Shown in pieces: positions 39,795 to 44,808 of a stretch of DNA of 56,023 nucleotides (position 1 is the first letter of the stretch; each line of letters begins with the position of its first letter). A program made the position numbers and the translations under genes. This stretch comes from Bacillota bacterium. Its GTDB lineage: Bacteria; Bacillota; Sulfobacillia; Sulfobacillales; Sulfobacillaceae. Below the pieces are notes generated by a model. It saw nothing but the letters and a program-made list of their open reading frames with translations. It made no database searches and had not been told where the DNA came from. The stretch lies in assembly GCA_021797825.1 (NCBI GenBank), contig JAJZZA010000014.1:1-56023 (forward strand), written 5' to 3'.

Positions 39795-41582
39795 ATGGCA
39801 TTTCATGACCGGGATAGCTGGGCGGATTCTGTGCGGCAGGCCACAAATATTGTCGAGGTTGTGGGCCGGCACGTCAGCTTGAAGCGGAAAGGTCGCCATT
39901 ATTGGGGACTCTGTCCCTTTCATAAGGAGCGCACCCCGTCTTTTAGCGTCGATCCGGAACAACAGCTATACTATTGTTTTGGATGTCACAAGGGCGGAAA
40001 TGTGTTCACGTTTGTGATGGATGTGGAAGGCCTTGGCTTTGTGCAAACGGTGGAGTCGCTGGCCGACGCGGCCGGGATTCCCCGCCCCGCCCTCAAGCGA
40101 TCTGATGCCGGCGCCGACCGTGCGGAACGGCTTAGGGCGGTGATGGAATGGGTCCAAGAGTACTTTGTCGGCAGCCCGACGGAGCGTCCGGATAGCTGGA
40201 GGCGGTATTTGGACGGGCGTCGGGTTTCGGAGGAATCGCGCCGCCGTTTTGGTTTGGGATGGGCTCCGGACCGCTGGGACGGGTTGGTCCAGTTCTTGAC
40301 CCGGCGGGGCGTTTTAGCGGGTGAGATGGAGGCCGCGGGCGTGGTGGTCAAGCGCCGCGACGGGACCGGGTTGGTTGATCGGTGGCGAGGCCGACTCATG
40401 TTTCCGATTTGGGACGCCACGGGAAAGATTGTGGCATTTGGGGGACGGAGTCTGGTTGCCGGTCAAGAACCTAAATACCTGAATTCTCCAGATACCGACC
40501 TGTTCCACAAGGGAAGGCTTTTGTACGGTGCCCACCTGGCGCGGCCGGCCTGGCGCAATGGCGAAGCCCCGTTGTTGGTTGAAGGCTATTTTGATGTGCT
40601 GGCGTTTCACGCGGCCGGCGTCAGCCGGGCAGTGGCGTCTTTGGGAACAGCCCTGACCGAAGTTCAGGCGCAGTATTTGCGGCGATTCCACGAAGCGGTG
40701 GATTTGTGCTATGACCGGGACCCGGCCGGCCAAGATGCCACGCGTCGTGCGTATCTGATTCTGTCCGCCGCCGGCATCAAGGTCAACGTCTTGCAATTGC
40801 CGGCCGGGAAAGATCCGGCCGAACTGCTGGAATCGCAAGGGGTTGATGCGCTGCGGGCCGTGTCGGGAACCGCCCGTCCTTATCTTGAGGATGTGTTGGA
40901 CAGCGTGCGAGCCCGACCCGAGTTGGCCACCCCGCGCGGCAAAGCCGAGATTGTCCATGAGGTGCGGGCGGTGTGGCAAGCGATACCGGATGCGGTGGAA
41001 AAAATGGAGTATCTGGATGTCATTGCCAGGACCTTGCGTATACAGCCTAAAATTCTATCACAAGGTTTTGGGGTGACGCAAGGGGCCGAGCATACATTCG
41101 GAAAAAATAGGCATAATATGGAGGTAACGCCGGCTCCGTCGCGGTCGTTGCCCTCCATCGAAATCAGACTGCTGGCGACGGTGCTGGAACGTGGCGAAGG
41201 CTTGGACCGGGTGGTTGGGCAGATTCCGGAATGGGGCCAGCAGCCTGCGGTCGCCGCGGTCTTGGAGGCGGTGGCGCAAGGCATGCGGAAAAACAACCTG
41301 GCGATATGGGTGGAGCGTCTCGATGAGTCAGCCCGGGGTTTGGCACTCCAAGCCAATGCCTGTGCGGTTCCGGACGGAGGGGTAGAAGCAATCGACGAGT
41401 ATGTTCGGGCCATCAAGTACCGACGTTGCCAAACGCGGTGGGACGAGTTGAAAGAACGGATACGACAGGGTGACAGCAGCCCGGATTTGCTGGCCGAGGT
41501 GCAGTCCGTGCAGCAGCTGCTGCAACGGCAAAAGGCGGCCGCATGGGCTCCGGATCGTTCACGGATGGGAAAGGAGGGATGA
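39795..41582 (+). CDS. dnaG: DNA primase
   Basis: A 595-residue replicative primase. The N-terminal zinc-binding domain uses Cys40, His43, Cys61 and Cys64 (CPFH...CFGC). The TOPRIM catalytic core includes [12 protein letters not shown] and [10 protein letters not shown], and the C-terminal helicase-binding domain follows. ATG 39795 with AAGGGGG upstream gives the conserved start; the frame extends to 39708 without family sequence. It overlaps the region just before rpoD, forming the dnaG-rpoD macromolecular-synthesis unit (without rpsU, which is 19 kb upstream). Confidence 0.96.
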
Positions 41583-41584
41583 CA

Positions 41585-42700
41585 ATGGCTCAGGGGAAAC
41601 GGGTAGTGCCGCAAATTGAAGAAGTCAAGGCGCTAATCCGCCGGGGACAGGAACGGGGCAAACTGTCCTACGGGGAAATTGTGGATACCCTGCAGTCGGT
41701 CGATCTTCCTCCCGACCAAATCGACAATATTTATGAGATGTTCGGTGAACTGGGGATTGAACTCGTCGGCGAACAGGAACCGGTTGAAGTCGTGGCGACA
41801 GCGACGACCGAGGCTGGGGGCCAAGAGGATGAAGAGATTCCCCGGGGAGATATTTCTGTTCCGGACGGGGTCACCATTGACGACCCCGTGCGCATGTATT
41901 TAAAGGAAATCGGGCGTGTTCCGCTGCTGAATGCGGAGGAAGAGGTCGAACTGGCCAAGCGGATTGAAGTCGGAGACGATGAGGCCAAGCGCAAACTGGC
42001 CGAAGCCAACCTCCGCTTGGTGGTCTCCATCGCCAAACGCTACGTGGGCCGTGGCATGTTGTTTCTCGATCTGATTCAAGAGGGCAATTTAGGACTCATC
42101 AAGGCCGTTGAGAAATTTGATTACCGCAAGGGATACAAGTTCAGCACCTATGCCACGTGGTGGATCCGGCAGGCCATTACCCGGGCGATTGCCGATCAGG
42201 CCCGAACCATCCGGATTCCCGTACACATGGTGGAGACGATTAACAAGTTGATTCGGGTGCAACGCCAATTGCTGCAGGAATATGGGCGCGACCCCAGCCC
42301 AGAAGAGATCGCCAAGGAAATGGGCATCACGGTGGAACGCGTGCGCGAGATTCTCAAGGTGGCGCAAGAGCCGGTGTCGCTGGAAACCCCGATTGGGGAA
42401 GAGGAGGATTCTCATTTGGGGGATTTTATTGAGGACGAGGATGCGCCGGCACCGGCCGAAGCCGCAGGCTATCAACTGCTCAAAGAGCAGTTGGAAGAGG
42501 TGCTGGACACGTTGACCAACCGTGAAGAAAAAGTGTTGCGTTTGCGTTTTGGCTTAAACGACGGCCGTGCCCGCACCTTGGAGGAAGTGGGCCAGGTATT
42601 CGGCGTGACGCGCGAGCGCATCCGCCAGATCGAAGCCAAAGCCTTGCGCAAGCTGCGCCATCCCACCCGGAGCAAAAAATTGAAGGATTATCTTGATTAG
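41585..42700 (+). CDS. rpoD: RNA polymerase primary sigma factor (SigA/RpoD)
   Basis: A 371-residue group 1 sigma factor, the size of B. subtilis SigA. A short region 1.1 is followed by region 1.2 ([17 protein letters not shown]), region 2 with [16 protein letters not shown] and [17 protein letters not shown] (-10 recognition), region 3 and region 4.2 with [20 protein letters not shown] (-35 recognition). AAAGGAGGG favours ATG 41585; another ATG at 41579 abuts the site. Consensus TTGACA/TATAAT promoters elsewhere in the window agree with this protein. Confidence 0.98.
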
Positions 42701-42737: not shown

Positions 42738-42864
42738 CATACGGGTCAAATGATGGGGTTACACTGCTCTTTATGAGGTGCGCTTTCATGCGTCTATCAT
42801 GTTTTCACGTTATCATGGCCGGCGTGGTGTGAAGAGAACGGATACCAAGAGGAGTTGATCCCCC

Positions 42865-44808
42865 ATCTGCGGGATAGCCGGAGTGTGGAAACGGCAGCGC
42901 CCGACGCGGCCACAAGAAATTGCGGGCATGCTGGAGGCGTTATGGCATCGGGGCCCGGACGACGAAGGCGTCTTTCATAGCCACCAGATGACTTTCGGGA
43001 TGCGCCGGCTGGCGGTTATGGACGTCGAATGCGGGAGGCAGCCGTATCGGTCCGAGGATGGTCGCGTGGTAGCGGTCTATAACGGGGAACTGTACAACTA
43101 TCCTGAACTAAAAGCCCTGGTCGAGGCGCGCGGTCATAAGCTTACCAGCCGAGCCGACGGCGAGGTGATCGTCCATCTTTATGAGGAATTTGGGTCGGAT
43201 TTTCTCTCCCGTTTAATTGGCATGTTTGCCCTGGCGCTGTGGGATACCAACCACGATCGGCTGTTGGTGGCCCGTGACCCAGTCGGGCAAAAACCCCTTT
43301 ATATCTGGGATCAGGGCAGCATGCTGGCCTTTTCCTCCGAACTGAAGGCCTTTCATCGCCTGGAGGAGTTTAGGGCGATAATCAATCCCCGGTTCCTCTC
43401 AGCCTATCTGGCTCATCGTTTTGTTCCCGCTCCCCACACGCTGCTGGAAGGCGTCAGCAAGCTCGCTCCGGGCGAGGCTTTGCTGGTGTCCCGCGACGGC
43501 CGCCGCCAGCGCTGGACATATTGGCAACCGCCGATGATTCCCGCCGACACCCCGCAGCAGATGGACGAATGGGTACAACGGCTTGACGACACCTTAAGCC
43601 GCGTGGTTGCTCGACACCTGCCGTCGGATGTGCCCATGGGCATCTTTTTGTCGGGAGGATTGGATTCCAGTCTGCTGGCTGCGCTGGCCGCCCGCCAAGG
43701 AGAGAAACTTGAGGCCTGGGCGGCGGTGTTTCCGGATGACTATCCGGGTTACGATGAATCTCCCTTTGCCGAACGGGTGGCGGCGGAACTCGGGCTGGAG
43801 CTCCATCGCATTCCGGTTGATTGGCTTATTACGCCCGACCGTCTGCGCGAACTGGCTTATGTGATGGATGAACCCATGGCCGATCCGACCGTGTTGCCGC
43901 TGGACGGTTTGGCTCGGGCGGCCGCCGACAAGGAAACGGTCATGTTGTCGGGCGAAGGCGCCGATGAAATTTTCGCGGGATACGCCGGCTACGGGGAAGT
44001 GGCGAGCTTGCGGCGCCTCAGTCGGATCCCGCGGCCCGTCCGCGATCTGTGGATTGCGCGCGGTTGGCCCGGAGCGGGAGCTTTTCGGCGTGTGCACGAG
44101 CCGCTGGCCGAGCGCTATCGGGGCGTGGGCTTTACATTTAGCCCGGATGAACAGATCTTCCTATTGGATGCCTCGCTGGTGACTTCGGATCGTTCGGCCG
44201 CGGTGCGCGATTACTGGGAGGCCGCATCCGGGGCCGGTCTTGACCCGATGCAAATGATGCAGGGATTTGATGTCCGCTGGTTCTTACCCGATGACGTGCT
44301 GCTCAAGGCCGACCGGATTGGCATGCATTATCATTTGGAGGTTCGGGTTCCCTTTTGCGATCCGGAATTGGTAACCTTGGCAATGACCATGCCTCCACAG
44401 ATTCGGCGAAACGCGCGGGAAGACAAACGGGTCTTGCGAAAGGTTGCGGATCGTTATTTGCCCTCGCAAATTGTTCATCGCCCCAAACGGGGATTTCCCA
44501 CACCGTTGACCCAGTTGATGGCCGGCCCGCTGCGCGAAATGGCCTGGGACGTGCTGGCGGGCGACCGGTGGCGCGAGCGCGGCTGGTTTCGTGTCCAACC
44601 GGTGCGCGCGTTGTTGGAGGCGATGGGACCAAACAACCCCACCGCCGCCAGGCAGGTATATGCTTTGCTCATGCTGGAATTGTGGCTGGAAGAGGTTGCC
44701 GAAATCCAGCCCGCTTACTCCAGAACGTCTTCCATTTCTAGCCCGTTGGAGACGGGGAGCGCGACCGGGAACGTCAATCTGCCGGGTGGTGCCGCCATGA
44801 GGTCATAA
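42865..44808 (+). CDS. asnB: Asparagine synthase (glutamine-hydrolysing), apparent AUC start codon
   Basis: A 647-residue AsnB-type enzyme with an N-terminal Ntn glutaminase (CGIAGVW..., WHRGPDDEG, YNGELYNY, SRADGEVI) and a C-terminal PP-loop synthetase (SGGLDSS at ~263-269, LSGEGADEIFAGY). The catalytic Cys must be residue 2. It is encoded at 42868 and is preceded by ATC 42865; an in-frame TGA at 42856 leaves only TCC, CCC and ATC upstream. AGAGGAG lies ten bases before ATC. The first conventional start (GTG 42883) would remove the nucleophile. So initiation at AUC, or a base error for ATG, is implied. The 3' end overlaps the DUF2508 gene by 94 bp. Confidence 0.88.
   Translation: MCGIAGVWKRQRPTRPQEIAGMLEALWHRGPDDEGVFHSHQMTFGMRRLAVMDVECGRQPYRSEDGRVVAVYNGELYNYPELKALVEARGHKLTSRADGEVIVHLYEEFGSDFLSRLIGMFALALWDTNHDRLLVARDPVGQKPLYIWDQGSMLAFSSELKAFHRLEEFRAIINPRFLSAYLAHRFVPAPHTLLEGVSKLAPGEALLVSRDGRRQRWTYWQPPMIPADTPQQMDEWVQRLDDTLSRVVARHLPSDVPMGIFLSGGLDSSLLAALAARQGEKLEAWAAVFPDDYPGYDESPFAERVAAELGLELHRIPVDWLITPDRLRELAYVMDEPMADPTVLPLDGLARAAADKETVMLSGEGADEIFAGYAGYGEVASLRRLSRIPRPVRDLWIARGWPGAGAFRRVHEPLAERYRGVGFTFSPDEQIFLLDASLVTSDRSAAVRDYWEAASGAGLDPMQMMQGFDVRWFLPDDVLLKADRIGMHYHLEVRVPFCDPELVTLAMTMPPQIRRNAREDKRVLRKVADRYLPSQIVHRPKRGFPTPLTQLMAGPLREMAWDVLAGDRWRERGWFRVQPVRALLEAMGPNNPTAARQVYALLMLELWLEEVAEIQPAYSRTSSISSPLETGSATGNVNLPGGAAMRS

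Follow-up and report, generated by a model that had tools for sequence, protein, structure and literature searches.

Comparison among relatives shows that asnB of this Bacillota bacterium, which encodes a glutamine-hydrolysing asparagine synthase, has AUC as its true start, and that this start is old and has been preserved as ATC. On the sequence evidence, we consider it likely that the gene is translated from a weak, IF3-discriminated AUC at position 42865 and that AsnB is thereby kept low. The stretch of DNA analysed (56,023 nucleotides, hereafter the window) corresponds to contig C114 in a draft assembly of 3.59 Mb and 156 contigs, and the features discussed are collected in Table 1.

Table 1. 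Coordinates of the asnB start region and neighbouring features, numbered from the first letter of the window.
Feature	Position	Strand	Evidence or remark
rpoD, upstream neighbour, same strand as asnB	41543..42700	+	ORF and profile evidence
Shine-Dalgarno-like AGAGGAG	42848..42854	+	sequence
In-frame TGA, closes asnB frame upstream	42856..42858	+	sequence, codon listing
ATC start codon of asnB	42865..42867	+	directly 5' of Cys nucleophile codon; ATC/ATT in 24/34 family copies
asnB CDS from AUC: asparagine synthase (glutamine-hydrolysing), 647 aa	42865..44808	+	open frame, profile match
TGC codon of Cys-2 (glutaminase nucleophile), with GIAG next	42868..42870	+	invariant alignment column; TIGR01536 match start
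GTG, next conventional start downstream, rejected	42883..42885	+	Cys and GIAG lost; NTG in 4/34 orthologues

The asnB locus and its start region

The frame is open from the ATC up to the stop ending at 44808, and its product matches TIGR01536 with 431 bits (cut-off 267) over model positions 1-517 of 517. The match begins at the Cys, whose equivalent in the PDB homologue 7ylz is residue 2. The protein thus resembles the glutamine-hydrolysing asparagine synthases with a Cys-2 nucleophile, the remainder of its glutaminase domain being intact, and differs from TIGR01536 AsnB in its start codon only; the Cys stands at position 2 only if AUC is the start. Two asnB paralogues in the same genome start with GTG and ATG. 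The gene lies downstream of rpoD and dnaG, and most relatives keep the rpoD-asnB order, whether or not additional DNA separates the two genes; in most copies rpoD precedes asnB on the same strand, which identifies these as orthologues. Between rpoD and asnB there is a 19-codon ATG frame (42773-42832, + strand) without obvious Shine-Dalgarno (SD) sequence, overlapped by a terminator-like hairpin (42776-42795). No Rfam match to a riboswitch or T-box was found within the window.

Read backwards from the Cys codon, the asnB frame contains ATC, CCC, TCC and TGA, i.e., no ATG, GTG or TTG, and the Cys codon TGC is followed by GGG ATA GCC GGA GTG, the last of these being GTG 42883. The initial annotation, whose coordinates for this region are correct on direct reading, had proposed an AUC start from exactly this arrangement (ATC directly 5' of the Cys codon, the frame closed by TGA 42856 and lacking any NTG in between); the ATC itself turns out to be shared by most of the family, which is more than chance. 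The AGAGGAG motif continues imperfectly as GGAGTTGATC, with one mismatch to GGAGGTGATC. Its AGGAG has an aligned spacing of 9, which is usable, and the SD score is 7.2 for ATC 42865 versus 5.2 for GTG 42883. A TTG at 42855 adjoins the SD out of frame with asnB; a frameshift from it was rejected, as the Cys would then stand at codon 5 and the TTG is not conserved in frame.

Start codons of asnB in relatives

A search of the GTDB order yielded orthologues nearly all from the same family, at 55-63% identity, and 34 copies from the GTDB family, including one from a sister family, were tallied. The codon preceding the Cys is ATC in 22 copies, ATT in two, ATG in nine and GTG in one, and no other codon occurs there; such swapping between ATC/ATT and ATG/GTG at a single position is the behaviour of a start codon and not of an internal Ile. 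Among 73 readable AsnB starts from outside the group, 68 are ATG, four TTG and one GTG, with no ATC or ATT. The choice of codon is also narrower than for isoleucine in general: ATC accounts for 22/24 (92%) of ATC/ATT/ATA at the start, whereas its share is 29%, 45% and 48% in the three internal columns with conserved Ile, and 40% when every Ile codon of these asnB genes is counted (naive binomial probabilities of 2e-7 to 7e-6, uncorrected for kinship). This retention of ATC against mixed internal Ile codons suggests selection. The ATC/ATT copies have a median SD score of 10.6 and are no different from the NTG copies in SD strength (p 0.44), giving no sign of compensation.

A similar history emerges from the maximum-likelihood tree of 39 AsnB proteins (midpoint-rooted, with some weak inner branches), which requires six start codon changes, where shuffled labels require 14.2 on average, and which has ATC on the deepest branches of the ingroup. 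It had been anticipated in the initial annotation that relatives with ATG at this position would speak against an AUC start; such copies do exist (9/34), but they form two nested clades only, while 24 copies retain ATC/ATT. The single GTG belongs to the sister-family genome G026. The presence of ATG in two clades and of GTG in one genome indicates that the weak asnB start is not indispensable. One genome (G005) holds two asnB copies of the group (L024 and L278), of which one starts with ATC and the other with ATG; the protein of the second is identical to that of L036, which comes from a MAG contig under a separate name, and contamination is possible.

These data bear directly on three other readings of the start. 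A one-base sequencing or assembly error hiding a true ATG, which the initial annotation had offered as an alternative, would be conceivable for a single draft genome in 156 contigs; it is refuted by the same ATC in 21 other copies from relatives of many genera, two of them in genomes with a single-contig chromosome (G016 and G023), and its probability is negligible. No more credible is initiation at GTG 42883, even though no conventional start precedes it in the frame, because the protein would lack the glutaminase nucleophile. Such a start would delete the Cys, as was rightly noted in the initial annotation, together with GIAG, and these are conserved in the group, with the glutaminase domain otherwise intact; the codon itself is not conserved as NTG (GTG in two orthologues, ATG in two) and is ATA, ATT or ATC in most of them. 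Translation could also begin at an upstream NTG, yielding a short propeptide that ends in Ile and is cleaved before the Cys. An in-frame NTG is present in 12 of the 24 ATC/ATT copies, usually 2-3 codons upstream and often exactly three. However, in the other 12, including the window copy, the stop comes first; where present at this distance, the NTG mostly overlaps the SD or lies beside it and has a worse SD score of its own, no propeptide sequence is conserved, and the retention of ATC at its third base is left unexplained, so that we regard a propeptide as very improbable.

Initiation on AUC and the parallel with infC

How such a codon might be used is suggested by other genes with rare starts. 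infC is the classic IF3-controlled gene, and in all 30 infC loci of the order the codon at the conserved N-terminus, or the one just before it, is ATC, ATT or ATA. In the window's genome infC starts with ATC after AAGGAGG (L034:1487-1489, contig C99), and five genomes of a single genus also have an ATG or GTG in frame, two codons 5' of the ATC, at a site too near the SD. In E. coli pcnB, a gene other than infC in a lineage other than that of asnB, the rare start is AUU. asnB shares with infC the rare codon class, the very ATC used in this genome, and an SD upstream, and IF3 discriminates against the infC start (PMC5472188); infC begins with ATT in E. coli and with ATC in Streptomyces (PMC5472188). 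In contrast to infC, asnB encodes a biosynthetic enzyme and not a translation factor, and would have no direct IF3 feedback loop. A further parallel is sigR of Streptomyces, whose GTC start is repressed by IF3 (PMC5472188) and which, like asnB, combines a non-NTG start conserved across relatives with a strong SD and is hidden from gene finders; its GTC with few GTT variants mirrors the ATC with few ATT of asnB. The two cases differ in that GTC departs from ATG at two bases and AUC at one, that the sigR start was proven genetically while that of asnB is known from comparison alone, and that asnB covers many genera, with changes to ATG, unlike sigR. With its non-NTG start, conserved rare codon and usable SD, asnB has three traits of the infC/pcnB/sigR class.

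We propose that the SD would position the ordinary initiator tRNA (anticodon CAU) on the AUC, which would be read with a third-base mismatch. AsnB would then begin with fMet-Cys, removal of the Met exposing the nucleophile, and IF3 would discriminate against the poor start as it does in infC of the same genomes; AsnB would be low, and should rise as IF3 activity drops. In the finished relative Sulfobacillus thermotolerans (G023) the initiator tRNA is indeed ordinary, with a CAU anticodon, and the 2.4 Mb of this genome scanned for tRNAs contain two CAU tRNAs, of which one shows the features of an initiator, and a single ordinary tRNA-Ile(GAU), with no special AUC-reading initiator tRNA seen. 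IF3 here retains the residues aligned with Y75, R99, K110, R131 and R133 of E. coli, which matter for fidelity. A codon survey of IF3 found non-Watson-Crick pairs to be tolerated at the third base only, and weak pairs to be excluded (PMC10158994); such exclusion of weak third-base pairs fits repression and makes efficient use of AUC unlikely. Taken together, the AUC codon, the infC parallel and the CAU initiator tRNA make it likely that fMet-tRNA initiates weakly on the AUC and that IF3 counteracts this. The low or regulated initiation suggested in the initial annotation would fit the codon and the infC parallel. We infer a regulatory role for the asnB AUC, as we do its decoding as fMet, low AsnB output and IF3 sensitivity; the odd start is probably a sign that translation of the gene is kept weak.

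Near-cognate starts elsewhere in the lineage

The main rival to a regulatory role is that the AUC is real but purposeless, the lineage broadly tolerating AUC, AUU, ACG and CUG as starts and asnB having inherited one of them. A survey of starts by a home-made gene finder over 76% of the S. thermotolerans genome speaks for such tolerance: among genes with a strong SD for which SD and coding signal most favour a non-NTG start, 13 have ATC, 11 ATT, 11 CTG and 10 ACG, versus a background of about 3.4 per other codon, and AAG and AGG are not enriched as starts. An E. coli control of 438 genes gave four genes at ATC/ATT/CTG/ACG versus 0.4 per other codon, which is too few to prove a difference or to establish a higher rate here. 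Within the window the survey found no other near-cognate start and left asnB itself unflagged at the threshold used, which shows it to be insensitive.

Individual genes also point to tolerance. The clearest is tpiA, in which ACG stands before the conserved ANWKMHKT, each time with an SD, in 7/7 genomes examined of the Sulfobacillus genus g8 (L279-L284; G023:C1:549885, + strand); in the six relatives of S. thermotolerans there is an in-frame stop upstream and no NTG, except for a GTG within the SD in three of them, and tpiA of other genera has NTG where the start is clear. From the ACG, Tpi has 252 residues. The S. thermotolerans proteome study gives it 241 residues (PMC7409299), which corresponds to a start at the Met within NWKM, and an annotation from this Met would leave out two conserved residues, Asn and Lys. 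In tsaD, ACG lies directly before KILGIESSCDET in three g8 genomes (G023:C1:1688887, + strand; L293 and L294), preceding ILGIESSCDET; the genera read besides g8 start tsaD with ATG or GTG, and G026 (L318) apparently with ATC. comB (G023:C1:2358603, + strand; loci L299-L308) has ATC in six genomes of g8, and apparently ACG in the window's genome (L299) and in G017 (L308). Further candidate near-cognate starts in S. thermotolerans (G023:C1) are those of fmt (CTG, 2309412), an RNase J-like gene (CTG, 1357562), a sigma factor (ATT, 1164729), radA (ATC, 412336) and a CbiX-like gene (ACG, 1757862).

Against a purposeless start stands the retention of ATC itself in 22/24 copies while Ile codons elsewhere are mixed, and we consider this rival rather unlikely, though to be taken seriously. 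A broader reading, which we advance tentatively, is a Sulfobacillus-type relaxed start selection, where infC, asnB, tpiA, tsaD, comB and others would be initiated from AUC, AUU, ACG or CUG by the ordinary initiator tRNA, as a group whose translation would depend on the level of IF3. Its clearest members might be asnB, with AUC family-wide, and tpiA, with ACG genus-wide. Regulation of asnB through its AUC and lineage-wide tolerance could both be true.

To our knowledge, apart from infC, pcnB and sigR, a non-NTG start that relatives have kept is found in very few genes of bacteria. A survey of triplets of closely related genomes counted one or two changes to AUU per tens of thousands of genes, reporting none to AUC (PMC5622118). 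On the practical side, near-cognate starts are missed by gene finders, as with Tpi of S. thermotolerans. A metabolic enzyme starting at AUC over many genera, together with the ACG of tpiA, provides natural material on how start codons may tune expression, and both cases bear on the strictness of initiation outside model bacteria.
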